From: Burkholderiaceae bacterium
GTDB lineage: Bacteria > Pseudomonadota > Gammaproteobacteria > Burkholderiales > Burkholderiaceae
Direction of reading: 5' to 3'
DNA length: 64,000 nt
Assembly: GCA_947462685.1 (NCBI GenBank)
Contig: CANHPL010000003.1
Span: forward strand, 62,001-126,000
This document shows, in pieces, positions 17,503 to 38,193 of the stretch (its first letter is position 1; each line of letters begins with the position of its first letter). A program made the position numbers and the translations under genes. Under the pieces are notes generated by a model that did not search any database, was not told the DNA's origin, and saw nothing but the letters and a program-made list of their open reading frames with translations.

Positions 17503-17515
17503 CCAACTTAATTTT

Positions 17516-18415: not shown

Positions 18416-18423
18416 TCATCGTA

Positions 18424-19587: not shown

Positions 19588-19598
19588 ATAGTTACTAT

Positions 19599-21215
19599 CT
19601 AGATGTTCTGAGAGTCCCAACTCTTCTCACTAAGCTCTAGAGTTCTTAAAGTCTTGCGGTCAATCTTTTCAGTATTCGTAAGAGGAAATTGTTCAATATA
19701 TTCATAGTATCTCGGTATCATCGATGCGGGCAGTCTAGGAGATAACCATTCCTTAAAAATTTTAATATCCGATAACTCTTTCGTTGGTGCTCCTAAAACA
19801 TAAACCCTGATTTCATCTTCCCCATCAGCAGCAGGGTATCCAACAGCAACGCAATCTGCCACATCTGGATGGGCGCGCATTTCAGTTTCAATTTCAAATG
19901 GCGAAATATTTTCACCACGTCTTCGAATACGATCTTTGTCTCTTCCTGCAAAATAGAAATACCCTTCTTCATCCTGCCTCATAAAGTCAGATGTTTGATA
20001 CCATAAATGTCGTACCGCCGATACAGTAGCTTCTGGCATATTTAAATACTCTGTCATCATGATGAATGGGCTTTTTGGCCGACAAACTAGTTGTCCCTCT
20101 TGACCAGGCTGAACGATATTGCCATCATCATCGACAATAGCTAACTCCCAATCTTCATGACACTTACCCATGGACCCAAGTTTTCTCTGTCCATATGGCG
20201 TATAAATCACTACTCCAATTTCTGTAATGGCAAATGATGACAACATGTGGACTTTAAAGCGCTTTTCAAAATCTTCGTCATACAAGACGTTGTAAACAGC
20301 TCTTAATTGATGATTGCTGTCATAGGGTGTTTCTATTTTTGACTTCAAAATAGCTGGCATGGATGGCGTTAGTAATGCAATCGTTGCTTTTGATTTTACA
20401 ACTGAATGCCAAAACTGTGATGCGCTAAATTTTTTATCTAAATAAACTTGACCACCCACCATGAAAAAAGGTAAAACGCCCTGTCTTGAACCAATCCCAT
20501 GGAATAAAGGCAAAGAGTTATACAAAATATCATTTCGTGTTAAGTCAGTTATCTTGATAAAGCTACATGGATTGGCAAAAAAATGCCCATTGGGCATCAT
20601 CACCGCTTTAGATGGTCCCGTAGATCCTGATGTAAAGAAAATGGATTGTACATCGCTGAAATGCGATTGCGATACATATTGATGATCTTCGTCTTGATAC
20701 AAGTCATCTATTTTTCTTAGTTTTGAGTTTTCTTGCATCTTGTGTGATAAATCTGCATCAGAGTCGATCAGGATTAAATGCTCAAAATAGTTATAAATAG
20801 AGGGGTCGATTTCTTGTAATTGATTAAGCACCTCATTGCTTATACATGCGTATTTACTTTTACAGTTAGTCAACACTTGTTCGAATACTCGCCCCTTTAA
20901 ACCCGGATTGACAAATGCAATTTGAGCGCCTCTTAAGTGAAGTGCAAACCATGTAATGACATACTCTATCGAGTTGCCCGCGATTAAAGGTACTAAAGTT
21001 CCCTTATCGATCCCAAGGTTGGCAAGACCATGCACAAGTCTCAGGACTTTTTTCCCAAATTGAGCATAGGTATAGTGCTCATTGCCATCAGTTATAAATA
21101 GTTGGGTAGCATTTTTTTGAATACTATTAAAAAACAAGGGTGAAAATATTCTTTGCTCTAGAGGCAAGTTTCTTAATTCTGCCATCTCAAAAGATGTACC
21201 AAGATGATTGGTCAT
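19599..21215 (-). CDS. AMP-forming acyl-CoA ligase 1 (ANL superfamily)
   Basis: 538 residues with all core adenylation motifs: 'FFTSGSTGPSKAVMM' (A3 P-loop), 'SSFAITEIGVVIY' (A5), 'YQTSDFMRQDEEGYFYFAGR' (A7), 'RRRGENISPFEIE' (A8 hinge) and the A10 lysine in 'TEKIDRKTL'. It resembles the CaiC-type ligases that activate betaine, aromatic or cyclic carboxylates. It is the last gene of the seven-gene minus operon, three bases after the alcohol dehydrogenase. The operon holds a second ligase (25326), so two acids or one acid at two stages are probably activated. Substrate unknown. Confidence 0.88.
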   Translation of the reverse strand: MTNHLGTSFEMAELRNLPLEQRIFSPLFFNSIQKNATQLFITDGNEHYTYAQFGKKVLRLVHGLANLGIDKGTLVPLIAGNSIEYVITWFALHLRGAQIAFVNPGLKGRVFEQVLTNCKSKYACISNEVLNQLQEIDPSIYNYFEHLILIDSDADLSHKMQENSKLRKIDDLYQDEDHQYVSQSHFSDVQSIFFTSGSTGPSKAVMMPNGHFFANPCSFIKITDLTRNDILYNSLPLFHGIGSRQGVLPFFMVGGQVYLDKKFSASQFWHSVVKSKATIALLTPSMPAILKSKIETPYDSNHQLRAVYNVLYDEDFEKRFKVHMLSSFAITEIGVVIYTPYGQRKLGSMGKCHEDWELAIVDDDGNIVQPGQEGQLVCRPKSPFIMMTEYLNMPEATVSAVRHLWYQTSDFMRQDEEGYFYFAGRDKDRIRRRGENISPFEIETEMRAHPDVADCVAVGYPAADGEDEIRVYVLGAPTKELSDIKIFKEWLSPRLPASMIPRYYEYIEQFPLTNTEKIDRKTLRTLELSEKSWDSQNI

Positions 21216-21218
21216 ACG

Positions 21219-22316
21219 TTAATTTCCTGGCACCAATATGAGCCTGCCAAAATTATCTATTGATTGCATCATTTTTGCATGCGACCTAGCCGCATCTGGA
21301 AGAAGATTATAAGAGTCAATAATTGCTTTTATTTTTTTATCGGCTAGTAACTCTAGTGCTTTAGCCATATGTTCTACTCCAGGAGCATATGACCCCAATA
21401 TTTGTAAACGCTTGAGAAGCGCAATCGCTGGCCGAAACTCCGCAACGCCACCTTCGACTTCCCCAACGCAAACTAATCTGCCATATAACGCCATAGATTT
21501 CAAGGTGGATTTGAAATTGGATACTCCTACAATATCAATCCCAACGTCCACCCCTTGACCGGCAGTCATATTAGTTACCTCGCTACTCCAATCGCGATTT
21601 TTTTCAGTCACAATCACTTCATCAGCCCCAAGCATTTTCAATTGATTCACTTTTTTACTACTTGATGTTGTGGCTATGACAAATGCCCCTGCTAATTTCG
21701 CAAGTTGAATAGCATGGACGCCTAAGCCTCCTGATGCGCCCGTAATTAAAACTTTTTCGCCTATTTGCACTTTACCTATATCTCTTAACGCGCGAATCAT
21801 CGTCCCAATACAGGCGGCACTTATACATGCTTCCTGTAAATCAACCGCGTCAGGAACTTGGCAAATACTATCCGCTCCAACAAGAACATATTGCGCATAC
21901 CCACCGTTAGCATCTTGACCAATAAACCATGCACTTGCACATGATTCAGATCTGCCTGTATGGCAATAAAGACAAGTACCACAGTGCCCTCTTCTTGGCA
22001 ATGAGGCAACTCGTTGGCCAGTCGTAAATTGATGAATTTGCGATCCAGTCTCCACAATGGTCCCTGATATTTCTGTTCCTAGTATTAATGGAAATTCAAT
22101 ATCGTTACTTTTATCATTGCTTGATGTTCGATAAGCAACGGATTTTTTGCGGATAGTTCCTTCTCTAATTGATAAATCTTTTCTATCAATCCCACACGCA
22201 GCAACTTTCAACAAAATATCTCGTGGCCCCACCTGAGGAATTGGTGCTTGACCATAAATTAATACTTCAGGACCACCAAAAGAATTAATTTGTACAGCAT
22301 TCATCATTTGAGTCAT
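21219..22316 (-). CDS. Zinc-dependent medium-chain alcohol dehydrogenase
   Basis: 365 residues of the MDR family. The GroES-like lobe has 'KVAACGIDRKDL' (catalytic zinc cysteine) and the four structural-zinc cysteines in 'CGTCLYCHTGRSESC'. The cofactor lobe has 'ITGASGGLGVHAIQLAKLAG'. It would oxidise an alcohol or reduce an aldehyde/ketone. Its ATG overlaps the thiolase-like gene's stop as ATGA, so the two are translationally coupled. If the thiolase-like protein is a retro-aldolase, this dehydrogenase could take its carbonyl product; that is inference. Confidence 0.88.
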   Translation of the reverse strand: MTQMMNAVQINSFGGPEVLIYGQAPIPQVGPRDILLKVAACGIDRKDLSIREGTIRKKSVAYRTSSNDKSNDIEFPLILGTEISGTIVETGSQIHQFTTGQRVASLPRRGHCGTCLYCHTGRSESCASAWFIGQDANGGYAQYVLVGADSICQVPDAVDLQEACISAACIGTMIRALRDIGKVQIGEKVLITGASGGLGVHAIQLAKLAGAFVIATTSSSKKVNQLKMLGADEVIVTEKNRDWSSEVTNMTAGQGVDVGIDIVGVSNFKSTLKSMALYGRLVCVGEVEGGVAEFRPAIALLKRLQILGSYAPGVEHMAKALELLADKKIKAIIDSYNLLPDAARSHAKMMQSIDNFGRLILVPGN

Positions 22317-23449
22317 CTGTGTTTCTCCGCACTATAAATAATAGAGGTACTTACTGGACCTGGCGCAATGTATTGGATATGCTTTGCATCTTTAATTTGG
22401 CGCACATCGCACTCACCTCTAATTTGTCTGATTGCCTCAATATTTAAATTCCAGCCCTGCATATAACTTTCGGAAAGGTGACCACCACTAGTATTTAACG
22501 GCAAGGGGCCATTCAATCGTAGACGATTACCTTTTACAAAGTCTCCTCCTTCACCCTGCTTGCAAAATCCAAACCCTTCTAGTCCAAAGATGACTGAAGG
22601 GGTGAAGTTGTCGTAAATCATGATTCCATCTAAATCTGATCGTTGTATGCCTGAGTCAGAATAAATATATTGGGCTACACGATTCATCGGCCCCCAATTA
22701 AAGTCTTCAGAAACAATCCCATTAGCTAGACTTGATGCTTGTCCAAAGCCACGTATGTAGACCGGTTGCTTTGCATAATCAATGGCTCGATCATTCGTTG
22801 TCATAATCATTGCAATTCCACCATCATTAATCTGACAATAATCAAATAAACGTAACGGTGCACATATCATTTTAGATGATTGATGATCTTGAATCGTCAT
22901 CGGCTTTCGCAAGACGGCTTGTGGATTTAGTTGGGCATGGTATCTTATTGCCACTGCAATTTGGGCTAAATCCTCAGACGTCGTGCCATATAACTCACAA
23001 TGCCTTTGAAACATGAGCGCATTCACAGCTCCCGGAGAAGTCATTCCGTAAGGAAACCATAGCTGTTCTGCGGCTGTATCATAACGATCACTTTTACCAC
23101 CGTATTTTGAACCACCAGATTTACCATCATTGCCATAAAATAAAGCAATTGTTTTAGCCTGTCCCGTCATTAATGCTAAAGCAGCTATTTGGATAGATAC
23201 GCCGCACAATCTGCCATTAGGTGGCTGTATGGAAATAAACTCTGGATTAATACCAGTCATTTCACATATCTTTTGATAGTTGCCTACCCGGTGAGTCACA
23301 ATTCCATCAATATCCTTCGCTTGAATATTGGCATCTAATAATGCGTTTTTAAATGCCTTAACAGCGAGGGAATTAGAGTCCTCCTCCGGAAAATTACCAT
23401 AAGCAGTATTTCCTACTCCAATAATGGCAATGTTTGGTTTTGTTCGCAT
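22313..23449 (-). CDS. Thiolase-superfamily protein, Ltp2/SCP-x-like (possible CoA-dependent retro-aldolase)
   Basis: 378 residues of the lipid-transfer-protein branch of thiolases: 'AIIGVGNTAYG' at the start, 'IMIYDNFTPSVIFGLEGFGFC' and 'NTSGGHLSESYMQGW'. Tyr279 and Tyr329 lie 50 residues apart in the motifs where, as I recall, steroid aldolase Ltp2 has its catalytic Tyr294 and Tyr344. The nucleophile region reads 'GRLCGVSIQIAA', not the usual C-x-S-G. Ltp2-type enzymes work only with a DUF35 (ChsH2) partner, and a DUF35 gene heads this same operon. I infer C-C cleavage of a beta-hydroxyacyl-CoA rather than thiolysis. It overlaps the dehydrogenase gene by four bases. Confidence 0.8.
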   Translation of the reverse strand: MRTKPNIAIIGVGNTAYGNFPEEDSNSLAVKAFKNALLDANIQAKDIDGIVTHRVGNYQKICEMTGINPEFISIQPPNGRLCGVSIQIAALALMTGQAKTIALFYGNDGKSGGSKYGGKSDRYDTAAEQLWFPYGMTSPGAVNALMFQRHCELYGTTSEDLAQIAVAIRYHAQLNPQAVLRKPMTIQDHQSSKMICAPLRLFDYCQINDGGIAMIMTTNDRAIDYAKQPVYIRGFGQASSLANGIVSEDFNWGPMNRVAQYIYSDSGIQRSDLDGIMIYDNFTPSVIFGLEGFGFCKQGEGGDFVKGNRLRLNGPLPLNTSGGHLSESYMQGWNLNIEAIRQIRGECDVRQIKDAKHIQYIAPGPVSTSIIYSAEKHR

Positions 23450-23451
23450 GT

Positions 23452-24432
23452 TTATTTCTTAATTAAATCTAAAAATTTAGGGTTATTCAAATGCTGATTC
23501 CATGCGCCTTCTCTTTCTACGAGTAATGATTTGTATTGCTCCGGATTTAAATATTCAACTGATATCGCACTTTTTCGCATTAACTCCTTAAAGTTGGAGT
23601 CTGCAACTGCTTCTGCAATCGCCGCTGATATTTTTTGAATGACTTGTGGCGGTAAATCTTTAGGGCCTAATATTCCATAACTTTCGCCATCGACATAATT
23701 GATGCCTAATTCTCGATAAGTTGGTACATCAGGCAAAAACTCTGATCGTTTTGAAGCCGTTACAGCAAATGCTTTAATTGAACCACTTTGCAAGTGCGAC
23801 ATGGCAATATTAGGTAACACAAAACCAACATCAACATTTCCGCCAATCACTGCCGCCACAACCTCAGAGCCCCCTTTATAAGGAATATGCGTGAGTAAAT
23901 AGTCTCCATATACCTGAGGACCTACGCCAAATGTATGCCCTGCAGTTCCAATTCCTGGAGTTCCATAATTTAATTTTCCTGGATTTTCCCGAGCATATTG
24001 AATCAGCTCTTTAAGATTCTTATAGTTTTTACTTGGATAAACAATCATTACCCCAGTAATTGAACTAATATTTCCTAAAGGCGCAAAATCTTTTAAGGAA
24101 TAGCTGATATCTTTTCTAAGTGATGGCACCATAGTTACTGTCGCCATCCCTGTAAAAAATAGTGTGTAACCGTCTGGCTTTGCTAATTTGACTGCATTTG
24201 CGGCAATGACGCCACCTCCGCCAGGCATATTATCAATAATAATTGGCTGTCCTAATTTAGCAGATATAAGTGGTGCCAAAGCCCGTATCTGGACATCGGA
24301 AGCACCCGGCGCAAATGGCACCACAATATGAATTGGTTTGTTTGGAAAAGAGTCCTGTGAGTTTGCGTACAAACAGAATGACGCAACGCAAGCAATGCCT
24401 AACTTTTGAAACATACTAATGATTTTTTTCAC
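23452..24432 (-). CDS. TctC/Bug-family receptor (Bug 6), inside the ligase/aldolase operon
   Basis: 326 residues with a signal peptide ending near 'CLYANSQ'. The first ligand loop is shortened: 'PFAPGASDVQIRAL' lacks one residue against the PGG-x-x-D form, and the usual A-R pair is displaced. The other signatures are normal ('DNMPGGGGVIAAN', 'AKPDGYTLFFT', 'IPYKGGSEVV'). It starts with GTG at 24432 after GGGGACTGCC. The gene is embedded between the SMP-30 and thiolase-like genes, so it is probably the receptor for this pathway's substrate. Confidence 0.9.
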   Translation of the reverse strand: MKKIISMFQKLGIACVASFCLYANSQDSFPNKPIHIVVPFAPGASDVQIRALAPLISAKLGQPIIIDNMPGGGGVIAANAVKLAKPDGYTLFFTGMATVTMVPSLRKDISYSLKDFAPLGNISSITGVMIVYPSKNYKNLKELIQYARENPGKLNYGTPGIGTAGHTFGVGPQVYGDYLLTHIPYKGGSEVVAAVIGGNVDVGFVLPNIAMSHLQSGSIKAFAVTASKRSEFLPDVPTYRELGINYVDGESYGILGPKDLPPQVIQKISAAIAEAVADSNFKELMRKSAISVEYLNPEQYKSLLVEREGAWNQHLNNPKFLDLIKK

Positions 24433-24453
24433 GGCAGTCCCCTTCTTTAAAAA

Positions 24454-25329
24454 TTAAATTGAATTTTCTAGCTTACCTTTTGAATTTACTTTACAACAAA
24501 ATAATTTACCTGATAAAGGCTGGTTTTGTATTTCCTCATCAGAAAGTCCAAAAGTCATGGATGTAATGAATAGTGTATCTAAATCCTTTCCACCAAATGT
24601 TAAGTTGGTTGGCTTTTTCACTGGGAGACATATCTCTTCTTCAATAAAACTATCATTACGTATTTTTAATAGTTGACCACCATCAATTTCAGCAACCCAT
24701 AAAAAACCATCTAAGTCCATGGTACATCCATCTGGTCTCCCTTTTCTCCCCACAAAATCCATAAAAATACGTTTATTGGCTATTGCCCCGTTTTCAATGT
24801 CAAAGTCATAGGCATAAATTTTTCCCGGTCTTGAATCGCAGAAATATAACGTTTTATCATCAGGACTCCAAGCAATTCCGTTGGACATCATCATTGCACC
24901 ATCCATCGAATGAGCTTGTAAGTTTGCGTCAATCTTATATAACCTACCAATATTATTTTTTAGTTGGCGGTCGAAACTTCCAATCCACAAGCGCCCCATT
25001 GAGTCTGCCTCACTATCGTTCAGTCGCTCTTGAGTGAAATCAATTCCCTGTACTTCAATGTTTGTGATCTCATGGGTTTTTACATTAAAGATCGCCAAGC
25101 CTTTTTGGAAGCCTAAAATTAAATTCCCATCTTTTTTTAGACGGATGCTTGAGGCTCGTGAAGGCAATTGGAAAACTTGTGTTTTTTGGGTGCTTACATT
25201 GTATTGAAACAACTTCAATGGTTTTAGGCCTACATCTACCCAATATACCGAATCCATGTCAGCATGCCACAATGGGCCTTCACCAATTTCATTGAGCTCA
25301 TCACTACATTGTTTGAATTCATAATTCAT
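24454..25329 (-). CDS. SMP-30/gluconolactonase-family lactonase
   Basis: 291 residues of a six-bladed propeller with the divalent-metal ligands of the family: Glu in 'IGEGPLWHADMDSVYWVD', Asn in 'MMSNGIAWSPDDKTLYFCD' and Asp in 'KGRPDGCTMDLDGFLWVAE'. It likely hydrolyses a lactone in the cytoplasm, as no signal peptide is present. The track start is 25341, but ATG 25329 overlaps the upstream ligase stop as ATGA and has GGAAA five bases upstream, so I choose it. A lactonase in this operon implies an oxygen-containing ring at some stage of the pathway. Confidence 0.85.
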   Translation of the reverse strand: MNYEFKQCSDELNEIGEGPLWHADMDSVYWVDVGLKPLKLFQYNVSTQKTQVFQLPSRASSIRLKKDGNLILGFQKGLAIFNVKTHEITNIEVQGIDFTQERLNDSEADSMGRLWIGSFDRQLKNNIGRLYKIDANLQAHSMDGAMMMSNGIAWSPDDKTLYFCDSRPGKIYAYDFDIENGAIANKRIFMDFVGRKGRPDGCTMDLDGFLWVAEIDGGQLLKIRNDSFIEEEICLPVKKPTNLTFGGKDLDTLFITSMTFGLSDEEIQNQPLSGKLFCCKVNSKGKLENSI

Positions 25330-26897
25330 TGTAATTTCCATGCATTTGGTGTTAGTCCATCTCTCATTAACTTTAATTTTTCGACCTTAAATGTTGGCGT
25401 ATATGGCAAACCTTCAACAAACTCGATATAAGATGGCCACATTAATTTAGGTAGTTTTTGTTTAATCCAATCCGCCAACTCTTTCTCTGATAAACGCTGA
25501 TCATTTTTAACAACAATCAGACGAATATCATCTTCTTTGCCATTAGGTAATGGTAATACAACACATTCTTTTACTGCACTATGTCCATGAATAATTTGCT
25601 CGATATCAAAGGATGAAATATTCTCACTCTTTCTTCGAATCCGCTCTTTTGCTCTATCGACGAAATAGTAATAACCTTCTTTATCTCGCCTCATCATATC
25701 GCCAGTATGGAACCAAAGATTTTTAAAAGCTTTGACTGTACTATGTGGTTGATTTAAATACCCTTGCATCATAATGAAAGGTAGTTTTGGTCTAACGACA
25801 AGTTCACCCAATTCGCCAATAGAAACATCTTGATCATACTCATCGACTAGTTTTGCTTCCCAATCTTCATGAGCTTTTCCACAAGAACCGATTTTTCTAT
25901 TCTCCCAATTTGAATATAAGACAAATCCCGTTTCTGTCATTGAGAATCCCTCGACTAGTGGCACTTTAAAGCGCTCTTCAAATTCTTGTGAGTAATGCGA
26001 ATTAAACATCACCCTCAATTGATGTTTTTTTTCATACTCATTAGGTGCTTGATCTAAAAGTGCTCTTGGCGTACTAAATAGTGAATGTCCAACTGTCGCT
26101 TTTGACTGAACTACCTGCTCCCAATAATGTGCTGCTGTAAATTTGGGAGCGACACTAACTGTTGCTCCCACTAACAAACATGGTAGTACGCCTAGTCTTG
26201 CTGCAAAACCATGAAATAAAGGAAACGGTGAAAATAAAACATCGTCTTGTTTTAAACCAACCACCCTGATTAAGCCAATCGCAGCTGAGAATTGATGTGC
26301 ATTCGTTGTCTGAACACCTTTTGCAGGTCCAGTCGTTCCAGATGTGTAAAAAATGGTTTGTATATCTTGGTAACTTCCTAGAGGTATAAATTTAGGCAGC
26401 AATTTTGCATCTTCTAACCATTCGTTATATTGTATGATTTGTGCTGAGAAATCATTCGTTGGACACCAGTCACCTACAATTACAATTTTCTTAATGATTG
26501 AAATGACGTTCTTTGGAAGTGTTTTTAATACCTTAAGAAAATCTGCGTGGATGATGATGATTTCTGCTTGAGAATCAATAAATGGTCTTGCAAGTATGTC
26601 GCCCATCAAATGGGGATTAATTGGTATATTAATCGCTCGGATCAAAGCACATCCAAACCAAGTAAAAACCATTTCTGGACAATTGGGCAACATCACCAAT
26701 ACGCCACTTTGCGGCTTTACATTTAGCTTTAATAACCCTTTTGCAACTGCTAATGATTTCTCATTAACCTCGGAAAATGTCCATGAACTATGTTCAAACT
26801 TTAGAAAAGTTTTATCCCCGATAAGTTGCGATTGCTTCTCTAGGAAAGCACCAATCAAGCGCTCTTGAAGCGGTACATTAAACAGCGTACTACTCAT
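25326..26897 (-). CDS. AMP-forming acyl-CoA ligase 2
   Basis: 523 residues, related to ligase 1. Motifs: 'FYTSGTTGPAKGVQTT' (A3), 'EGFSMTETGFVLYS' (A5), 'WFHTGDMMRRDKEGYYYF' (A7) and an A10 lysine in 'TPTFKVEKLKL'. The A8 hinge reads 'RRKSENISSFDIE': the glycine of the usual R-G-E-N is Ser, while ligase 1 keeps Gly. That hinge drives the change between adenylation and thioester formation, so kinetics may differ. The start overlaps the DUF35 gene by eight bases and the stop overlaps the lactonase start, giving tight coupling. Confidence 0.87.
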   Translation of the reverse strand: MSSTLFNVPLQERLIGAFLEKQSQLIGDKTFLKFEHSSWTFSEVNEKSLAVAKGLLKLNVKPQSGVLVMLPNCPEMVFTWFGCALIRAINIPINPHLMGDILARPFIDSQAEIIIIHADFLKVLKTLPKNVISIIKKIVIVGDWCPTNDFSAQIIQYNEWLEDAKLLPKFIPLGSYQDIQTIFYTSGTTGPAKGVQTTNAHQFSAAIGLIRVVGLKQDDVLFSPFPLFHGFAARLGVLPCLLVGATVSVAPKFTAAHYWEQVVQSKATVGHSLFSTPRALLDQAPNEYEKKHQLRVMFNSHYSQEFEERFKVPLVEGFSMTETGFVLYSNWENRKIGSCGKAHEDWEAKLVDEYDQDVSIGELGELVVRPKLPFIMMQGYLNQPHSTVKAFKNLWFHTGDMMRRDKEGYYYFVDRAKERIRRKSENISSFDIEQIIHGHSAVKECVVLPLPNGKEDDIRLIVVKNDQRLSEKELADWIKQKLPKLMWPSYIEFVEGLPYTPTFKVEKLKLMRDGLTPNAWKLQ

Positions 26898-27309
26898 TTC
26901 TAGGCGTAAATTTGATTAATGTAATTTCGTCAGTAACGTCTTCAAAGTAAGCCTTTACTCGGAGGCCAACTTTAAGTTGAGCTTGCCCCTGGTTAACTAT
27001 ATTGCTAATTAATCTAGGTCCCTCATCTAACTCCACCATGATTACTCCATAGGGTAAATCTTTTGCAAACTCAGGAAAGTATTTTTGATGAAAAACACAA
27101 TGTGACCAGATAGTTCCATTACCACTTAGAGTTTTCCATATAAATAATTCTGAGCCACACTTTGGGCAAAAATCTTCAAATTGAGTTCGGATATTTTCGC
27201 AAGTCTTACATTGTGGCAATTGAATCAAATGATGTTTTGCTGCGTCCCAAAAAGGCTTACTTCGTTCATCGATCAAAGGCAAAGGTTTCGTATAATTTTG
27301 CATTGTCAT
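26890..27309 (-). CDS. DUF35 zinc-ribbon/OB-fold protein (acyl-CoA-binding partner of thiolase-like enzymes)
   Basis: 139 residues: an N-terminal helix ('KPFWDAAKHHLIQLPQC'), a rubredoxin-like zinc ribbon 'CKTCENIRTQFEDFCPKCGS', then an OB-fold with 'GNGTIWSHCVFHQKYFPEF'. DUF35 proteins dock on thiolase-superfamily enzymes and bind the acyl-CoA; ChsH2 with Ltp2 and the archaeal thiolase complexes are examples. The track start at 27360 lies within the control region; ATG 27309 has GGGGA nine bases upstream and begins the conserved helix. It is first in the operon that includes the thiolase-like gene. Confidence 0.85.
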   Translation of the reverse strand: MTMQNYTKPLPLIDERSKPFWDAAKHHLIQLPQCKTCENIRTQFEDFCPKCGSELFIWKTLSGNGTIWSHCVFHQKYFPEFAKDLPYGVIMVELDEGPRLISNIVNQGQAQLKVGLRVKAYFEDVTDEITLIKFTPRNE

Positions 27310-27346
27310 CTCATTGTGTCCCCAGCATATATATTGGTTTTTATAC

Positions 27347-27381
27347 TGACAATATAGCAAAATATAATTATTGACAATATA
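27347..27381. repeat. Direct repeat TGACAATATA x2 in the divergent control region
   Basis: The exact decamer TGACAATATA occurs at 27347-27356 and 27372-27381, 25 bp apart (start to start). Both copies lie between the divergent DUF35 and MFS genes and one overlaps the proposed plus-strand -35 box. This is a candidate operator for both operons. In AT-rich DNA chance repeats occur, so the confidence is moderate. Confidence 0.4.
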
Positions 27382-27400
27382 AGTGTTTAAGTTCTAATAT
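27371..27400 (+). promoter_or_regulatory. Sigma70-type promoter for the MFS/Mo-hydroxylase operon
   Basis: TTGACA (27371-27376), an 18-bp spacer and TAATAT (27395-27400) lie 65 bp before the MFS start. The -35 is a perfect consensus and the -10 matches five of six positions. Confidence 0.55.
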
Positions 27401-27464
27401 TCAAAAAGGTATCTTCTCTACACAATAATTAATATAATGCCAAAAAGGCAATGAAGGAGACGTC

Positions 27465-28757
27465 ATGGTAACGCATACCTTGGCTGGTGATGGTTCAAAT
27501 GAAGCATCTGAAATTACTAAATATCAAAAGCTTGTTCTTTTATCAGCCTTCTTAGGCTGGATGTTTGACTCGATGGACTTAAACATCTTTACTTTAATTT
27601 TATTTCCATGCATTAAAGAATTGATTCAATCGACCAATCCTGCTGAAATCGCAAAAATAGGAAGTCTTGTTATTGCGATTAAGTTATTTGCATGGGGTAT
27701 TGGTGGCGTACTTTTTGGAATTGCAGCGGATCGCTATGGTCGTGCAAAGATTATGGGTGTTACGATTTTAATTTATGCCCTCTTTACTGGCCTGAGTGCA
27801 TTTGCAACTAGCTGGGAAATGCTGGCTTTCTTCCAAGCTTTAGCTGGTATCGGTATTGGTGGTGAATGGGCTGCAGGTGCAGCAATTATTGCCGAAACAT
27901 GGCCCGCTAAAAATAGAGCTCGCGCGATTCAAGTGATGCAGCTTGCCTTTGCGGTTGGATTCTTCTTAGCCGCTATTAATAATTTACTTCTCGGTGAATA
28001 TGGCTGGCGCGTTGTTATTGGAGTTGGAATTATTCCATTATTTTTGACGATCTTTATTCGTCGCTATGTGAAAGAGCCTGAAAGATGGCTGCGTGTAAAC
28101 GAGGAAAGGAAAAATGATCCTGAACAATCTTCAAATTGGAAAATTTTTAGTGCCATTTTTAGTAAGCCTCATTTGAAGAACACGATCGTGGGGGTTACAG
28201 TTGCTTCTGCTGCTATGTTGGGTTGTTGGGCTGGCTTGTCTTTATTGCCAACCTGGATTATGCAATTAACTACTGCAGCAAAAGCAGGAAATCCAGTAAG
28301 TATGGTAAGTTATGCCTTTATGCTGATGATGCTTGGTGCTTTTGCTGGATATGTAAGCTTAATCTGGCTATCTGACTTCTTGGGTAGAAGAAAGTGCTAC
28401 TTCCTCTTTTGGAGTTTTGCTTTGGTTTCTTCTCTATATTTATTTACCCAAGTAAATGACATTTATACTCTGATTTGGTTTATGCCTATCTATGGTTACT
28501 TCGTCATTGGTGGCTTTGGAACTTTCGCAACGTACTTGCCTGAGTTGTTTCCAACGCGTGTCCGTGGAACTGGGCAAGGCTTTTGCTGGAACATGGCGCG
28601 CTTTTTGACGGGCTTCGGTCCTTTAAGTGCTGGATTTTTAATTCACTCTATGGGGTCTATTCCTAAAGTAGCTGCTATCCTTTCATTATTTTTTATTGTT
28701 GGATTAGTTGCCATCTGGTTTGGTCCAGAAACTAAAGGTATGCCCCTTGAAGATTAA
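27465..28757 (+). CDS. MFS transporter for an organic acid
   Basis: 430 residues with about 12 membrane segments. Loop 2-3 carries 'GGVLFGIAADRYGRAK', the major-facilitator signature, partly repeated in the second half as 'WLSDFLGRRKC'. 'GIGIGGEWAAGAAIIAETWP' in segment 5 is typical of proton symporters of the aromatic-acid/metabolite branch. It would import the pathway substrate across the inner membrane. It is the only recognisable carrier for organic acids in the window apart from SulP. ATG is preceded by GGAGACGTC at good spacing. First gene of the plus operon. Confidence 0.88.
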   Translation: MVTHTLAGDGSNEASEITKYQKLVLLSAFLGWMFDSMDLNIFTLILFPCIKELIQSTNPAEIAKIGSLVIAIKLFAWGIGGVLFGIAADRYGRAKIMGVTILIYALFTGLSAFATSWEMLAFFQALAGIGIGGEWAAGAAIIAETWPAKNRARAIQVMQLAFAVGFFLAAINNLLLGEYGWRVVIGVGIIPLFLTIFIRRYVKEPERWLRVNEERKNDPEQSSNWKIFSAIFSKPHLKNTIVGVTVASAAMLGCWAGLSLLPTWIMQLTTAAKAGNPVSMVSYAFMLMMLGAFAGYVSLIWLSDFLGRRKCYFLFWSFALVSSLYLFTQVNDIYTLIWFMPIYGYFVIGGFGTFATYLPELFPTRVRGTGQGFCWNMARFLTGFGPLSAGFLIHSMGSIPKVAAILSLFFIVGLVAIWFGPETKGMPLED

Positions 28758-28782
28758 TATTTATTTTGAATAAGGTTTGATT

Positions 28783-29514
28783 GTGAGTAATTTAATAGTA
28801 GATGTTGAAAATTCTATAGCTCGTATCGTCATTAATCGACCCGAGTCTGGTAACCGTTTAGAAATGTCGATGGTTAAGGAAATGACTCAGTTGATTAATG
28901 ACTTTAGTTTTAACATGGATATCAAAGTGATCCACCTAACAGGTCAAGGTGATGATTTTTCGCAAGGCCGTCAATTACATAAGCCTGAGCCTGGCAATAC
29001 TCCTCCCAAGAAAAGTGCTAATCAAATCCGTGCTGAAGTAACTGATCCGCTTTTGGCTGTTTATGCGGCAATGAAATCTTGTCAAATTCCTCTTGTTTCC
29101 TCTGTATTTGGCAATGCATTTGGTTTAGGGTGTGCAATTGCTACATTATGTGATATCACTTTAGCATCTTCAAAAGCACGCTTTTCTTTGCCAGAAATGA
29201 AAAGTAATTTGCCGCCAACTTTAGCAATTTCAGCAGTAATGCATGTCGTGCCAAGAAAAGCACTTGCCCATTTGGTTTATTCAACCGATGAAATCGATGC
29301 TCAACAAGCTTTCGAATATGGCTTTGTCAGCAAAATCCTTTCAACAGATAACTTTTCTGAACAGGTAAACGACTACATTGCAAAATTAGTGACTCGTGAT
29401 CGTGCAGCTTTATCTGCAGTAAAAGAGTACTTAAATCTCGCTCCTGGTAAAGATTTTGACATCGCAGCTCGTTACGCCTCTAATCTTTTATCCGGAGTTC
29501 TAGCTTCACAATAA
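28783..29514 (+). CDS. Enoyl-CoA hydratase/isomerase-fold protein 1 (one catalytic Glu missing)
   Basis: 243 residues of crotonase fold. The oxyanion-hole regions are 'DDFSQGRQLHK' and 'FGNAFGLGCAIATLCDITLA'. Aligned with hydratases, the first catalytic glutamate (GGGCEL) is Ala118, while the second is kept as Glu138 in 'FSLPEMK'. This favours a hydrolase, isomerase or other crotonase activity over standard hydration. The position next to a Mo-hydroxylase recalls HmfE, the crotonase-fold 2-oxoglutaroyl-CoA hydrolase of furoate degradation. The track start is TTG 28777, but GTG 28783 is seven bases after AAGG, so I choose GTG. Confidence 0.82.
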   Translation: MSNLIVDVENSIARIVINRPESGNRLEMSMVKEMTQLINDFSFNMDIKVIHLTGQGDDFSQGRQLHKPEPGNTPPKKSANQIRAEVTDPLLAVYAAMKSCQIPLVSSVFGNAFGLGCAIATLCDITLASSKARFSLPEMKSNLPPTLAISAVMHVVPRKALAHLVYSTDEIDAQQAFEYGFVSKILSTDNFSEQVNDYIAKLVTRDRAALSAVKEYLNLAPGKDFDIAARYASNLLSGVLASQ

Positions 29515-29551
29515 CTAATTATCATTTTTAAACTTTCTTGCAAAAACTTAC

Positions 29552-30169
29552 ATGGCATTAATTATAAAAACATCTTTCATGGCAAATACTACGAGAGATA
29601 AAGTATGGGCTCTCATTACCGATATTGAAAAATCAGCGCCCTGTTTTCCTGGGGCAATCTTAGGTGATCAGTTACCCGATGGGTTCTACCAAGGTGGGTT
29701 TAACGTCAAACTAGGCCCTATGACTTTTAATTTTTCAGGTAAATTTGGATTTACTGAACTTAATGCTCCAAATTATGTTGCAAAGATTTCTGCAAGCGGA
29801 ACAGACACAAAAGGCCGCGGTGGTGCCCAAGGGTTAATAGATGTCGATTTAGTCGAGATGGCAAATCAGACTCAAGTCAATATTTCATCAGATGTGACCT
29901 TGTCTGGATCTGTCGCGCAGTACGGGCGAGGTGTTGGCATGATTCAAGCAATTTCTCAACAATTAATTAATGAATTTGGTAAAAATCTTTCCACAATGAT
30001 TGTTGATGACAAACCATCTCAGACAATCACGACCGCCTCCCCTCCATCTGCGGAGCAACCCAAGCCCTTAGTGAGTTCTTCAGCAGCGAAGAACTCGATA
30101 CAAGTCCACCAATTATTATGGCAAACTTTGATAATATGGATTAAAAATATCTTTATTAAGAAAAGCTAA
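29552..30169 (+). CDS. CoxG-like SRPBCC protein (Mo-hydroxylase accessory)
   Basis: 205 residues. The first ~150 are a START/SRPBCC domain of the CO-dehydrogenase subunit G family: 'RDKVWALITDIEKSAPCFPGA', 'GFNVKLGPMTFNFSGKF' and 'VTLSGSVAQYGRG'. A Pro/Ser-rich linker and a short hydrophobic tail 'LLWQTLIIWIKNIFI' follow, which may attach it to the membrane. CoxG is thought to recruit CO dehydrogenase to the cytoplasmic membrane. Here it precedes the three Mo-hydroxylase genes, so it probably anchors this enzyme near the respiratory chain. Confidence 0.85.
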   Translation: MALIIKTSFMANTTRDKVWALITDIEKSAPCFPGAILGDQLPDGFYQGGFNVKLGPMTFNFSGKFGFTELNAPNYVAKISASGTDTKGRGGAQGLIDVDLVEMANQTQVNISSDVTLSGSVAQYGRGVGMIQAISQQLINEFGKNLSTMIVDDKPSQTITTASPPSAEQPKPLVSSSAAKNSIQVHQLLWQTLIIWIKNIFIKKS

Positions 30170-30178
30170 AATTAAATT

Positions 30179-31054
30179 ATGAAGCCAGCCCCGTTTATTT
30201 ACCATAGGCCTCAACAATTAAGTGAGGTGCTTGATCTAGTCGCTCAACTGGATAATTATAAAATTATCGCGGGTGGGCAATCATTAATGCCGATGATGAA
30301 TTTTCGTTTTGTGATGCCCGATCATGTAATTGATTTAAATCAGGTAACTGAGTTAAATCATATCTCGAAAGAAAATCAACAATTACATATTGGTTCTATG
30401 ACTAGGCAACAAGCGATTTACTCTTCTGCACTCGTTCAAGAACACATTCCGCTGGTTACCCAAGCGTACTCTTTTGTGAGTCATCGTCAAATCAGAAACC
30501 GCGGTACTTTTGGCGGTAGCTTGTGCCACCTTGACCCATCTTCGGAGCAGCCTTGTTTTACCGCTGCTTTAGATGGTGTCATTGAGGTCGCTAGTCAATC
30601 AGGCAAGCGTGAAATTCCCATTGCACATTGGACGGCGATGTATATGACGCCTGATTTAGCCCCTAATGAAATTATGCTCGGTGCTAAACTGAGTATTTGG
30701 CCTAAGACACATGGTTGGTCATTTATGGAATACTCCAGAAGGCATGGGGATTACGCAATTGTTGGTGTCGCTGTACTTGTGAATCTTAATGCAGCATCAA
30801 CTATTGAGAAAATATCTATTGCCCTTTGCGGAATTGATGCAGCACCTGTCAGGTTACTAAATACTGAAAGTGTCCTAATTAATCAAGCTGCCGATGAAAG
30901 TGCTATTCGTCTAGCCTTGGGTGACATAGAAAAGCTACCTAATATTATGGAAGATGCTTTGAATACTTCTGATTATCGTCGGCATCTAGCCAAAACATTA
31001 ACTCGACGTGCGCTATTAGAAGCATTTGAGCGTGCAAAAAAAAGGATGTCATGA
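30179..31054 (+). CDS. Molybdenum hydroxylase, medium FAD-binding subunit
   Basis: 291 residues of the CoxM/CutM family. FAD-binding motifs are 'IIAGGQSLMPMMNFR' (residues ~34-50) and 'NRGTFGGSLCHLDPSSEQ' (~105-122), the equivalents of AGGHS and TIGGN. It accepts electrons from the iron-sulfur subunit and passes them on. The next gene begins within its stop codon (ATGATGG), giving the order M-S-L with four-base overlaps at each junction. Confidence 0.9.
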   Translation: MKPAPFIYHRPQQLSEVLDLVAQLDNYKIIAGGQSLMPMMNFRFVMPDHVIDLNQVTELNHISKENQQLHIGSMTRQQAIYSSALVQEHIPLVTQAYSFVSHRQIRNRGTFGGSLCHLDPSSEQPCFTAALDGVIEVASQSGKREIPIAHWTAMYMTPDLAPNEIMLGAKLSIWPKTHGWSFMEYSRRHGDYAIVGVAVLVNLNAASTIEKISIALCGIDAAPVRLLNTESVLINQAADESAIRLALGDIEKLPNIMEDALNTSDYRRHLAKTLTRRALLEAFERAKKRMS

Positions 31055-31539
31055 TGGATCTTCATCGCATAAAAGTACATGTCAACGGTAAAGCTTATGA
31101 GTGTGAAGTTGAGTCACGTAGAACTTTAGCAGATTTTTTACGTATGGATTTATCCTTAACAGGGACACATTTGGGGTGTGAGCATGGTGTCTGTGGTGCT
31201 TGTACAGTATTGCTCAATGGCAGTTCGGCTAGAGCATGTCTTACACTTGCAGTGCAAGCAGACCAATGTGAGATTACGACGATTGAAGGCTTAGCCCATA
31301 CTGATGGAACTCTGTCAGTTCTCCAGCAAGCCTTTCAAGAGTGTCATGGTCTTCAATGTGGCTTTTGTACTCCTGGAATGTTAACAACCTTGACTGAACT
31401 CTTAAATGAGAATCTCTCTCCTACTGAATCGCAAGTGAGAGAAGCTATTACTGGCAACCTTTGTCGTTGTACAGGATATCAAGCAATCGTTGAGGCTGCA
31501 TTGCTCGCAGCGCAAAAATTAAGAGATCAAAGAGTATGA
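31051..31539 (+). CDS. Molybdenum hydroxylase, small 2x[2Fe-2S] subunit
   Basis: 162 residues. The plant-type ferredoxin centre is 'GCEHGVCGACTVLLNG' (C-x4-C-x2-C) plus a later cysteine in 'ARACLT'. The second centre is 'CGFCTPGML' with 'CRCTGYQ'. The length and all eight cysteines are as expected for CoxS-type subunits. It links the Mo centre to FAD. Overlaps of four bases on both sides show it is co-translated with the medium and large subunits. Confidence 0.92.
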   Translation: MMDLHRIKVHVNGKAYECEVESRRTLADFLRMDLSLTGTHLGCEHGVCGACTVLLNGSSARACLTLAVQADQCEITTIEGLAHTDGTLSVLQQAFQECHGLQCGFCTPGMLTTLTELLNENLSPTESQVREAITGNLCRCTGYQAIVEAALLAAQKLRDQRV

Positions 31540-33920
31540 ACAACCATCAAGAAGACTCCCTATTACCGCATGCTCGTCCTAACCAATTTATTGGTTCAAG
31601 AATGCAAAGAACCGAAGATCATTTGCTTTTGCAAGGTCTTGGCAAGTATGTGGACGATATCCCACTTACCAATGTTCTTTATTCAGCATTCGTGCGCAGT
31701 CCTCATGGACATGCAAAAATACTTTCGATCGATATCAGTAAAGCCAGTCAATTACCTGGCGTTCATAAAATCTATTTACATAAAGATCTGCCTGAGTCTG
31801 CCCAAACACGTCTGCCTATTCTCGTACCTAACCCTTCTATTAAACACTTGATGATGCAAGAAGTTTTAGTAAGTAAGGAGGTCTGCTGTGTGGGTGATGC
31901 TGTCGCTTTCGTGGTTGCAGATAATCGCTATATTGCTGAAGATGCTTGTAATTTAATTGATGTAGAGTACGAGATACTTCCTGTTGTGGCTGATTGTTTA
32001 AAAGCTCTTGATGCAAATGCCCCTTCTTTTTTTAGCGGTATTCCGAATAATTTAGCTGCACAATTGAATGTACATTTTGGTGAGGTTGATTCTGGGTTTT
32101 CTCAAGCAACTCACGTTGTTCAAGAGGTATTTTGGAATAATCGAGGCTCCGCTCATCCAATGGAGACACGTGGTTACGCGGCTGAATACCACCAAGCATC
32201 CGGACAATTAACTGTCTGGTCTTCTGGCCAAACGCCTCATTTAGAAAAGAAAAATTTAATTGATATCTTAAAGTGGGATCCAGAGTTTATAAGAATCATT
32301 CATCACGATGTTGGCGGTGGATTTGGGCCTAAAGCTATCTTTTATCCTGAAGAAGCCATGGTTGCAATTGCTGCACATGATTTGCTACGTCCTGTTAAAT
32401 GGATTGAGGATCGTCGGGAACATTTTTACACAGCTACTCAAGAACGTGATCAATGGTGGGATATTTCAATTGCTCTTGATGCTAATGCCAAAATATTGGC
32501 CATGAAAATAGATATGACGCATGACAATGGGGCCTATCTTCCCTGGGGAATTATTACTCCCTATATCGGTGTAACAACAACCCCTGGTCCTTATGTTATT
32601 CCTGCTATTGATGTTAATCTCAAAGTGGTTTATACCAATAAAAATGCGACCTCGCCCGTGCGTGGCGCGGGTAGACCACAAGCTGTGTTTGCCATGGAGC
32701 GAATTTTAGATAAAGCCGCTCGCCAATTAGGTATTGATCGCGCTGAAATCCGCCGTAGAAATTTTATTCAACCTGAACAAATGCCCTATAACAATGGCTT
32801 CATCTATCGAGATGGAAAACCCATGGTATATGACAGTGGTGACTATCCTCAGTGTCAAGCTCTTGCGTTAGAAAAAATTGCTTATGATGATTTTCCTACA
32901 AGAAAAGCTGCTGCATTAAAAGAGGGGCGTTATTTAGGTATTGGTATTGCTAATTTTGTGGAAGGTACGGGTCTTGGCCCCTTTGAGGGTGCTACCGTGC
33001 GTGTACAACAAACTGGTCGCATAACAATCTTGACTTCAGCATCTTCACAAGGGCAGGGTCATAAAACCACCTTCATGCAAATCTGTGCAGACCAACTTCA
33101 AGTTCCCCTAGCAATGATAGATGTCATTACTGCTGATACAAATGCGATCTCGATGGGTATTGGTACTTTTGCCAGTCGGGTAACAGTCAATGCAGGAAAT
33201 TCGGTTTTCTTGGCGTCTATAAAAGTAGCTGAAAAGATCAAGGGCTTAGCAGCATTTTTAATGCAAACTCGAGTCGAAAATATTCAGTTATTAGATGGTC
33301 ACGCCATCACTATTGATGATCCATCAAAGAAGAAATCTTTTGCTGACCTTGCCCGAGTCTCTCAGGGTATGCCAGGTTTTTCATTTCCAGAAGGCGTGAC
33401 GAACGGACTAGAATCTACTGAATATTTTTCACCTGCTCAATCGACCTACTGCAATGGTACCGCTGCTGTTGAATTGGAGCTTGATCGTGATACGTGCCAA
33501 ATTAATATTCTGAAATATGTCATGACACATGACAGTGGTAATCTGATTAATCCATTATTGGTAGATGGTCAGGTACAAGGCTCAATCGCTCACGGCATTG
33601 GTAATTCAACATTAGAAGACATGCAGTATGACGACCAAGCCCAACCCATCACAACGAATTTTGGTGAGTATTTGTTACCCATGGCAACTGATGTTCCGAA
33701 AGTGGAGATGTATCATCTATTCTCGCCTTCTCCGCTTAATCCTCTTGGAGTTAAAGGTGCTGGTGAGGGTGGCACAATTCCCGCAGCCGCTGCAATTGTT
33801 GCTGCAATCGAGGATGCAATCTCAGATACTGGTATTTTTCTGACTCAAGCGCCAATGACACCACCACGACTATTTGAAATTTTGAAAAAAGCTGGTGCCT
33901 ACCCAACCCCTACTTTGTGA
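31536..33920 (+). CDS. Molybdenum hydroxylase, large (molybdopterin cytosine dinucleotide) subunit
   Basis: 794 residues of the xanthine-oxidase family. Visible are 'RMQRTEDHLLLQGLGKYVDD' at the start, the cofactor motifs 'GGGFGPKA' and 'SQGQGHKTT', and the catalytic glutamate Glu744 in 'GVKGAGEGGTIPA'. The active-site loop around residue 376 reads 'PVRGAGRPQ', not the AYxCSFR of genuine CO dehydrogenase, so the enzyme hydroxylates another substrate, most likely a heteroaromatic or its CoA ester (compare furoyl-CoA dehydrogenase HmfABC). The stop lies 11 bp inside the convergent Bug 7 gene. Confidence 0.9.
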   Translation: MNNHQEDSLLPHARPNQFIGSRMQRTEDHLLLQGLGKYVDDIPLTNVLYSAFVRSPHGHAKILSIDISKASQLPGVHKIYLHKDLPESAQTRLPILVPNPSIKHLMMQEVLVSKEVCCVGDAVAFVVADNRYIAEDACNLIDVEYEILPVVADCLKALDANAPSFFSGIPNNLAAQLNVHFGEVDSGFSQATHVVQEVFWNNRGSAHPMETRGYAAEYHQASGQLTVWSSGQTPHLEKKNLIDILKWDPEFIRIIHHDVGGGFGPKAIFYPEEAMVAIAAHDLLRPVKWIEDRREHFYTATQERDQWWDISIALDANAKILAMKIDMTHDNGAYLPWGIITPYIGVTTTPGPYVIPAIDVNLKVVYTNKNATSPVRGAGRPQAVFAMERILDKAARQLGIDRAEIRRRNFIQPEQMPYNNGFIYRDGKPMVYDSGDYPQCQALALEKIAYDDFPTRKAAALKEGRYLGIGIANFVEGTGLGPFEGATVRVQQTGRITILTSASSQGQGHKTTFMQICADQLQVPLAMIDVITADTNAISMGIGTFASRVTVNAGNSVFLASIKVAEKIKGLAAFLMQTRVENIQLLDGHAITIDDPSKKKSFADLARVSQGMPGFSFPEGVTNGLESTEYFSPAQSTYCNGTAAVELELDRDTCQINILKYVMTHDSGNLINPLLVDGQVQGSIAHGIGNSTLEDMQYDDQAQPITTNFGEYLLPMATDVPKVEMYHLFSPSPLNPLGVKGAGEGGTIPAAAAIVAAIEDAISDTGIFLTQAPMTPPRLFEILKKAGAYPTPTL

Positions 33921-34896
33921 TGTTGCCTTCTTTTGCAATCTTTCTATTAACCTCTAAACCATCCTGAATTTGCTTTTTAAACTCATCTGCAGGTATTGCA
34001 ACGATTTTAAATCCTATGTTATCGAAAGCCTCCTTGACGGCGGGAGCTTTCATACTGGCTTGTAATGCCGCTTGTAATTTAGCTGAAACATCTTTAGGTA
34101 TGCCAATTGGTGCGACAACGCCAATCCAACCCGTGTAATTCCAGTACTTGAGCTCTGGAACACCGGTCTCAGAAAATGTTGGAACGTTGGGCAATACTTT
34201 CGCTCTAGCAGTTCCTGAAATAGCTAAACCGGTAACTTGGTTGGTAGCAATATGGGATTTGATGTCTCCTAAATCTGGCATCAACATACTCACTTCACCA
34301 CCTAACAAACCTAACATCGCTGGTCCACTGGATTTATAGGGCACATGCAGGGCTTTAATTCCAGTTAAGCTAAGAAAAGCAGAAGTTGTAAAGTGAATAC
34401 TTGATCCGCCACCACCACTGCCAAAAGTTAATTTGCCAGGATTTGCTCGTCCATAGGCTACTAATTCAGCTAAATTTTTAACGGGGATGGATGGGTGAAC
34501 CACCAGAACCGATTGGTATTCAATCGCATTGATCAGGTGAGTGACATCATTAACTGGATCGTATCCAACATTTTTATCTAAAATCGGATTAATCGTCATG
34601 GATGCTGGGGATACAGCAGCAATGGTGTAGCCATCTTTCGCTGAATTAATGAGGGATTCCACACCAATCTTTTGTGAGGCTCCAGGTCTATTCACAACAA
34701 CGATAGGCTGTCCAATTTCAATAGCCAATTGCTTTGTAATAACGCGGGCAGTCAAGTCAATTGGGCCACCTGGTGCAGTAGGTACGATCATCGTAATTGG
34801 TTTGTTTGGAAATGTCTGCGCTTGTAAGAAAGTTGTAGGCCAAAAAATTAGCGCTAATAATAAAAAATGGTTACTCTTTAGTACTCTTGTAAGCAT
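33910..34896 (-). CDS. TctC/Bug-family receptor (Bug 7)
   Basis: 328 residues: signal peptide to about 'TTFLQAQ', then 'PTAPGGPIDLTARVI', 'NRPGASQKIGVESL' (with the GAGG turn changed to GASQ), 'SAKDGYTIAAV' (Asp-Gly kept but Pro missing) and 'VPYKSSGPAM'. It is convergent with the Mo-hydroxylase large subunit, and the two coding regions overlap by 11 bp at their ends. It stands alone, transcribed toward the Mo-hydroxylase operon. Confidence 0.9.
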   Translation of the reverse strand: MLTRVLKSNHFLLLALIFWPTTFLQAQTFPNKPITMIVPTAPGGPIDLTARVITKQLAIEIGQPIVVVNRPGASQKIGVESLINSAKDGYTIAAVSPASMTINPILDKNVGYDPVNDVTHLINAIEYQSVLVVHPSIPVKNLAELVAYGRANPGKLTFGSGGGGSSIHFTTSAFLSLTGIKALHVPYKSSGPAMLGLLGGEVSMLMPDLGDIKSHIATNQVTGLAISGTARAKVLPNVPTFSETGVPELKYWNYTGWIGVVAPIGIPKDVSAKLQAALQASMKAPAVKEAFDNIGFKIVAIPADEFKKQIQDGLEVNRKIAKEGNITK

Positions 34897-35030
34897 TTCA
34901 TCTCCATTATTTTAGTGACTTGTATTCACCGTTTGTTATTGGATTATATTACCTGAAATAGCTTTGAATATCACCTATTTATTGCCGCACATAAGATTTC
35001 CTTCTAGGGAGAAAAACATCTTTTTTCATA

Positions 35031-35061
35031 AATCAAGGAGTGATTAAATCACCCCTTGATT
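35031..35061 (-). terminator. Near-perfect palindrome downstream of htpG
   Basis: Arms AATCAAGGAGTGATT and AATCACCCCTTGATT flank a single base. Read on the htpG strand they form a 15-bp stem with one G-U pair. It lies 31 bp after the htpG stop. No immediate T-run follows, so it may be a weak terminator or an mRNA-stabilising hairpin. Confidence 0.5.
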
Positions 35062-35091
35062 GAATTACTTTGGCGATGAATGCGCCCTGTA

Positions 35092-36993: not shown

Positions 36994-37047
36994 TTTTATC
37001 CTCTAAGTGTCAAATGAGATTACAAATAAATAAAAGTTATTCTTCAG

Positions 37048-37073
37048 TTAAGGGTTAATTTCTCAATTTCAAG
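37048..37073 (-). promoter_or_regulatory. Sigma32-like heat-shock promoter of htpG
   Basis: On the minus strand, CTTGAAA (37073-37067) and CCCTTAA (37054-37048) are separated by 12 bp. This matches the sigma32 -35 box exactly and the -10 box CCCATnT partly. The spacing is slightly short. Its position before a known heat-shock gene supports the call. Confidence 0.55.
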
Positions 37074-37185
37074 GGTACGTTAGTATTTTTTGATTGATTT
37101 TGTTAAGTTGAAATGAATTGGTTTAAACTCAATTCATCATATAAAAAGAGTTTTTTGCCCTAATAAGCTTTAGTGGAGACGACAA

Positions 37186-38160: not shown

Positions 38161-38193
38161 ATATTAACCAACAAACTGATAGAGATAAGGAAC

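Follow-up and report, generated by a model that had tools for sequence, protein, structure and literature searches.

The question raised by this locus is whether two divergent operons encode one catabolic pathway or two. The window, a 64,000-nucleotide stretch of DNA from a freshwater Burkholderiaceae bacterium (genome G000, 2.6 Mb), contains at positions 19599-33920 a set of 13 genes in which a molybdenum (Mo) hydroxylase operon and an aldolase operon lie back to back. A preliminary description had joined all 13 in a single pathway that would take a heteroaromatic or cyclic acid through conversion to the coenzyme A (CoA) ester, hydroxylation of the ester by the Mo hydroxylase, ring opening by a lactonase and, last, cleavage by the aldolase. 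Based on a comparison with related genomes, we conclude that the locus probably holds two independent catabolic operons side by side, namely a retro-aldol CoA pathway (operon A) and a separately gained or lost block for the hydroxylation of (hetero)aromatic acids (block B).

The gene inventory itself was sound: all 13 reading frames are open at the places given in that description, and every family named there was confirmed by Pfam. Both operons are tightly packed, with adjacent genes overlapping by 4-16 bp or almost touching, and the 155-bp divergent gap is valid given a duf35 start at Met 27309 (the longest open reading frame begins with TTG at 27360). The feature extends further than described on both sides: a second Bug receptor gene, which overlaps the end of the L gene by 11 bp, goes with the Mo block, and caiB-hpcH-caiB (16339-19587) accompanies the aldolase operon in the two nearest relatives. 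The features are listed below; L numbers denote loci, G numbers denote genomes, and M, S and L are the subunits of the hydroxylase, L being the large one.

16339-19587, + strand: caiB1-hpcH-caiB2 (CoA-transferase III, CitE/RipC-like lyase, CoA-transferase III), convergent companion operon; Pfam, NCBIfam and PDB
19599-21215, - strand: AMP-forming acyl-CoA ligase 2 (acs2); Pfam AMP-binding
21219-22316, - strand: Zn-dependent medium-chain dehydrogenase (adh); Pfam ADH_N and ADH_zinc_N
22313-23449, - strand: Ltp2-type aldolase with a thiolase fold (thl), putative catalytic pair Tyr279 and Tyr329; Pfam Thiolase_C_1, alignment and Foldseek
23452-24432, - strand: Bug/TctC periplasmic receptor 1; Pfam TctC
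24454-25341, - strand: SMP-30/regucalcin-type putative lactonase; Pfam SGL (226 bits), best PDB match 7plb (SMP-30/Cgr1-family)
25326-26897, - strand: AMP-forming acyl-CoA ligase 1 (acs1), PRK06155/CaiC-like; Pfam AMP-binding, kept in L028 and L029
26890-27360 (likely start 27309), - strand: DUF35/ChsH2-C OB-fold aldolase partner (duf35); Pfam OB_ChsH2_C (65.5 bits), PDB Shy-DUF35 9myr_B and ChsH2-DUF35 6ok1_B
27310-27464, no strand: divergent gap of 155 bp, within which the edge of the separable block (27362/27363) falls; start choice and L028 alignment
27363-35020, no strand: separable Mo block, 7.66 kb, missing in sister genome G301 (L028); collinearity
27465-28757, + strand: MFS transporter, aromatic-acid/H+ symporter-like (under the family cut-off); Pfam MFS, 60% identity to the MFS beside the G053/G017 L orthologues
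28777-29514, + strand: crotonase-fold enzyme (ech) of an uncharacterised subfamily; Pfam ECH_1, Ala in place of Glu144, Glu140 in that of Glu164, PPT invariant
29552-30169, + strand: CoxG/SRPBCC protein; Pfam COXG
30179-31054, + strand: Mo hydroxylase M subunit (flavin adenine dinucleotide, FAD); Pfam FAD_binding_5 and CO_deh_flav_C
31051-31539, + strand: Mo hydroxylase S subunit ([2Fe-2S]); Pfam Fer2 and Fer2_2
31536-33920, + strand: Mo hydroxylase L subunit (molybdenum cofactor); Pfam MoCoBD_1 and MoCoBD_2, VRGAGR replacing the CoxL CSFR motif, GAGEGG motif
33910-34896, - strand: Bug/TctC receptor 2, member of the Mo block; Pfam, inside the indel, 51% identity to the Bug at the G302 UbiD-linked Mo operon

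Separate inheritance of the two operons

The sister genome G301 carries operon A with an empty site in place of block B. Its locus, L028, is collinear with window positions 12331-27362 and 35021-40664 at ~84% DNA identity, and the stretch corresponding to 27363-35020 (mfs-ech-coxG-M-S-L and Bug receptor 2) is missing. In its stead there are 440 bp of unrelated DNA, in which no remnant of the Mo block was found, and htpG lies directly upstream of duf35. The aldolase operon of G301 is intact (79-94% identical to that of the window), and no close L was found anywhere in that genome, the best match being 37% identical. Contig C89 of a further genome, G300, reads bug2-L-S-M-coxG-ech-mfs-duf35-acs1, which is the window arrangement with both operons in the same order. 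Since the Mo block together with the Bug gene at 33910-34896 is missing in G301, present in G300 and without remnant, we regard it as a discrete indel, which may represent either a gain in the G000/G300 line or a loss in G301.

Other relatives of operon A were found at L027, L028 and L029, where the thiolase is 96%, 94% and 77% identical, respectively. L027 and L028, the two nearest, keep the aldolase operon together with caiB-hpcH-caiB (83-95%), the products of which resemble CoA transferases and CitE/RipC-type lyases, all under the NCBIfam cut-offs. L029 lacks this companion operon and possesses all seven aldolase-operon genes without the Mo block, and the thl-adh-acs2 portion recurs in L030 and L031. 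A whole-collection scan with the window thiolase yielded 80 loci beyond the window (81 sequences including it), at which companions were counted within chosen distances and M, S or L homologues within 10 kb. Such a homologue is found near thl at just one of the 80 (L080, where L is distant, at 35%), a count that is a lower bound because flanks are incomplete at some loci. Conversely, the nearest relatives of L (64-66% identical) have no Ltp2/SMP-30/ligase set beside them.

The operons are therefore inherited separately, and probably constitute two pathways rather than one new pathway. As judged from the sequences, A and B would not share a substrate, and the 13-gene combination looks like an accident of position.

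Three observations weigh against this interpretation. First, the two operons stay adjacent in G300 (DNA identity about 86-88%), which means that their pairing has survived one species split. Second, the assignment of block B draws on the decarboxylase UbiD (see below), and the window block has no UbiD; the link to UbiD thus rests on relatives, a 56% identical UbiD being located elsewhere in the bacterium's own genome (contig C18). Third, in V. paradoxus VAI-C (L107, CP063167.1; L 64%) and G477 (L 53%) the L relative sits in one operon with genes for DUF35, for a thiolase and for a CoA transferase of the CaiB type. That thiolase is, however, only 25-27% identical to the window thl and belongs to a different family, with an active-site-like Cys and an HDAF motif of the true-thiolase type. 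Elsewhere, therefore, a Mo hydroxylase does have a DUF35-thiolase as its partner, but that partner is not the aldolase of the window. The VAI-C operon (L107:13300-24580) runs SRPBCC - DUF35 - Cys-type thiolase - M - S - L - IclR - CaiB - GMC - ECH - alpha/beta hydrolase, and this strain grows on acyl-homoserine lactones (PMC8142574).

The single pathway of the preliminary description would be supported by the divergent arrangement with no gene between the operons, by their adjacency in G300, and by the association of L with DUF35, thiolase and CaiB in V. paradoxus and G477. Nevertheless, we consider it unlikely and dropped it as the best reading after the L028 collinearity comparison. The neighbourhood search that the description had itself called for shows no joint conservation of the two operons: a sister genome with an intact operon A is without exactly the Mo block, operon A occurs without B in L029 and almost always lacks M, S or L nearby, and the closest L relatives (65-66%) are without aldolase, lactonase or ligase. 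No described pathway with this gene combination turned up among the open-access papers that were searched.

The Mo hydroxylase block and its relatives

The nine closest L relatives outside the window's species group were compared. Window L is 64-66% identical to those of VAI-C, G053 and G017, and 51-59% identical to those of G482, G477, G434, G562, G443 and G302; no close relative was found outside the order in the class and phylum samples (best 44%). In the L tree these sequences form a Burkholderiales clade without a characterised member (support 100/100), apart from hmf-type L, QorL and CoxL, and 6-hydroxypseudooxynicotine dehydrogenase also lies outside it. Membership of the xanthine oxidase family is clear, as the MoCoBD, FAD and two [2Fe-2S] domains all score over the Pfam cut-offs and the catalytic Glu near the C terminus is present, the L motif GAGEGG aligning with GMGESA of QorL. 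Among solved structures, quinoline 2-oxidoreductase QorL (1t3q) is nearest to L in sequence (481 bits), but the two do not fall in the same supported clade. The subunit set and CoxG are shared with form I aerobic CO dehydrogenase, whereas the CSFR motif is absent (SPVRGAGRP instead) and L scores under every CO dehydrogenase family cut-off of NCBIfam; that identity was rejected on these grounds. Roughly 10 xanthine-oxidase-family large-subunit loci are present in G000, while L homologues at E 1e-60 number 0-1 in four listed genus mates; the sampled members of the genus have genomes of 1.7-2.2 Mb.

UbiD adjoins L, or lies within a few kb, in seven of the nine relatives (G302, G434, G562, G443, G482, G053 and G017). 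The most extensive operon is a single run in G017 and G053 comprising PcaC-like (CMD) - PcaD-like - CoxG - M - S - L - ECH - UbiD - UbiX - SSADH, in which no ligase or CoA transferase was found; a scan of G017 placed XdhC next to the run, and close by a GntR regulator and a permease of the NCS2 type. A Mo operon with PcaC-like, PcaD-like, UbiD, UbiX and SSADH (succinate-semialdehyde dehydrogenase) genes, adjoining a xanthine/uracil-type permease, is seen at L203:766-16443 and L202, and has the appearance of an entire pathway from a heteroaromatic acid to succinate. At L170 (G482) L is 59% identical, UbiD and Bug adjoin, and no M or S was recognised within ~10 kb.

Relative to rat crotonase, the crotonase-fold proteins of the set have kept only the second of the two catalytic Glu residues of enoyl-CoA hydratase, the first being absent. 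This pattern suggests isomerase or hydrolase chemistry. In the bacterium's own genome (contig C18, L201:3340-8510), AndAc/AndAd-like Rieske oxygenase genes are followed by a member of the same crotonase subfamily (35% identity with ech of the window), then by a Bug gene and by the UbiD that is 56% identical to the Mo-operon UbiD; the UbiD/crotonase pair thus recurs with a different oxygenating enzyme.

Block B (27363-35020) would provide uptake through MFS and Bug, and hydroxylation by the three-subunit Mo enzyme together with CoxG, with the crotonase-fold protein as a further component. The block is probably a shortened form of a Burkholderiales module in which, we infer, a (hetero)aromatic acid is hydroxylated beside the ring heteroatom and decarboxylated by UbiD, after which the ring product is isomerised and hydrolysed. 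One possible refinement, compatible with two independent operons and put forward tentatively, is that the substrate of the Mo enzyme is the free acid. Once hydroxylated, the acid would be decarboxylated by UbiD to an unsaturated lactone, isomerised by the crotonase-fold enzyme and hydrolysed by a PcaD-like enol-lactonase to succinate semialdehyde, with the window keeping part of the set and the rest supplied from elsewhere in the genome. The G017/G053 operon, with neither ligase nor CoA transferase and with XdhC next to it in G017, agrees with such a route, as does the adjacency of the own-genome UbiD to the same crotonase subfamily. Against it, the usual substrates of crotonase folds are CoA esters, a CoA transferase of the CaiB type is encoded in V. 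paradoxus and G477, and the PcaD-like candidates in the bacterium's own genome are just 21-27% identical. More doubtful still is the full proposal that furan (or related heteroaromatic) carboxylates are degraded by an undescribed route independent of CoA, in which the double-bond shift and PcaD-like opening to succinate semialdehyde would be completed by SSADH to succinate, the whole set residing in the G017/G053 operon and part of it in the window. Literature searches returned nothing relevant on UbiD in clusters of the xanthine-dehydrogenase family or on a route from furoate to succinate semialdehyde.

The preliminary description had called the Mo genes furoate-like, and this holds in part. 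The hmf cluster for furoate and 2,5-furandicarboxylic acid (gene functions as listed in PMC12064950) has in common with the window block the three-subunit Mo dehydrogenase, a crotonase-fold gene and MFS, and with its nearest relatives UbiD and UbiX. Clusters L207-L210 were recognised as hmf by synteny only (intersecting UbiD and L matches, with domains checked in L208 only); L208-L210 read UbiD-UbiX-L-M-S-AMP ligase-ECH-GMC-MFS, and L207 is alike without an ECH match. In the strict sense the term fails, since the L subunits of these synteny-identified clusters are 31-32% identical to window L and form a separate 100/100 clade. The block also differs in its M-S-L rather than L-M-S order, in the presence of CoxG and in the absence of a UbiD (HmfF). 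Its crotonase-fold protein, the possible counterpart of the 2-oxoglutaryl-CoA hydrolase HmfE, belongs to a distinct subfamily without the Glu144 residue. It is improbable that the block is an hmf-type furoyl-CoA dehydrogenase system with acs1 or acs2 as the furoyl-CoA synthetase. Its gene content, the adjacent ligases and the best match of the G302 UbiD among solved structures, 6h6x/6h6v (which we take to be HmfF), would fit. However, no ligase that could serve as HmfD is present in the block or at the seven UbiD-linked Mo loci, the window ligases sit in the separable operon A, and strict hmf membership was rejected on the L tree.

The probable Ltp2-type aldolase operon

The preliminary claim of a thiolase/DUF35 aldolase fared well in its essentials. 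The thl product scores 210.9 bits against Ltp2 (6ok1; 37% identity) and 74.4 bits against BbsB, and in Foldseek its AlphaFold2 model (predicted local distance difference test score 90.8) ranks Ltp2 first and second at E 1e-36, the top match being the Ltp2-ChsH2(DUF35) aldolase 6ok1. Tyr279, Asn281 and Tyr329 align with Tyr294, His296 and Tyr344 of TcLtp2, in which Tyr294 is the base and Tyr344 the acid, and replacement of His296 costs only 14-fold (PMC12329534). The YDNF motif and Tyr329 are invariant in 81/81 aldolase sequences, an invariance that is partly built in, because each of the 80 loci was picked by at least one of two short patterns covering these residues; one pattern sufficed, and every locus has both. 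The nearby DUF35 gene matches Shy-DUF35, its closest relative, and ChsH2-DUF35. Taken together, the paired tyrosines, the DUF35 partner and the fold look like those of an Ltp2-type retro-aldolase.

What does not hold is the steroid context of Ltp2. All 81 sequences have YDNF in place of YDHF with its oxyanion-hole His; given the merely 14-fold effect of losing this His in TcLtp2, we propose Ltp2-like aldolase action, but do not file the enzyme as a steroid Ltp2. The ChsH1-ChsH2 or Shy (MaoC) hydratase partner is missing: the DUF35 gene carries the OB domain alone, no MaoC gene is found among the operon A genes, and an SMP-30 lactonase and two ligases stand alongside instead. No steroid gene, and none of a steroid-ring-degradation family, was seen among the window families scanned (part of the window reading frames), and a steroid pathway was accordingly rejected. 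The CtSal-Shy(DUF35) bile-acid aldolase (9myr; PMC12329534) is likewise a thiolase-fold aldolase with DUF35, but Sal has YDCY with Tyr302/Cys304 and a Gln at the second Tyr position, whereas the window protein has the Ltp2-type pair. An ordinary BbsAB-like beta-ketothiolase with a DUF35 partner, suggested by the fold and by Cys82 near the thiolase nucleophile region, is the least probable alternative of all and is disfavoured by residue conservation, as the position of Cys82 is occupied by Ser, Ala, Thr or Leu in 74/81 sequences, both Ltp2 tyrosines are invariant, and Ltp2 far outscores BbsB.

The companions of the aldolase recur. At the 80 loci, DUF35 is present near 75, SMP-30 near 29, Zn-dehydrogenase near 28, ligases near 27 and CaiB near 25, which upholds the lactonase as an aldolase partner and identifies the Zn-dehydrogenase as another. 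At L038, L042 and L059, as many as three Ltp2-like/thiolase genes and three DUF35 genes stand in tandem with CaiB, a ligase and a cyclase-family gene. The SMP-30 protein of the window matches regucalcin as well as 7plb, and its divalent-metal ligands Glu, Asn and Asp are conserved relative to 7plb (GEGPLW, SNG and PDG positions). It is a putative lactonase that would open a lactone in the operon A pathway.

For operon A (19599-27309, - strand, plus caiB-hpcH-caiB in the nearest relatives), the likely mechanism comprises uptake, CoA activation, lactone opening and oxidation, listed in no particular order, and finally retro-aldol cleavage. Bug receptor 1 would serve uptake and the two ligases CoA activation; the Zn-dehydrogenase would catalyze an alcohol oxidation or similar redox step, and SMP-30 the opening of the lactone. 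The Ltp2-DUF35 aldolase would then cleave a beta-hydroxyacyl-CoA to a ketone or aldehyde and a short acyl-CoA, Tyr279 acting as the base and Tyr329 as the acid. A literature search on the SMP-30/DUF35/thiolase combination found nothing relevant. A further set of the dicarboxylate/CoA-ester type lies in the same island, at window positions 42743-47670, and is an operon of ECH, FAS1_DH/MaoC-like, acyl-CoA dehydrogenase, CaiB and HpcH genes.

Two uncharacterised enzyme sets

An attractive single-pathway interpretation was thus corrected by a direct empty-site comparison. What emerges are two uncharacterised enzyme sets open to laboratory test. One is the widespread Ltp2-type aldolase/DUF35/lactonase set, all members of which have YDNF and the second tyrosine. 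The other is the Mo-hydroxylase/UbiD/crotonase set of the Burkholderiales, which may degrade heteroaromatic acids without CoA.

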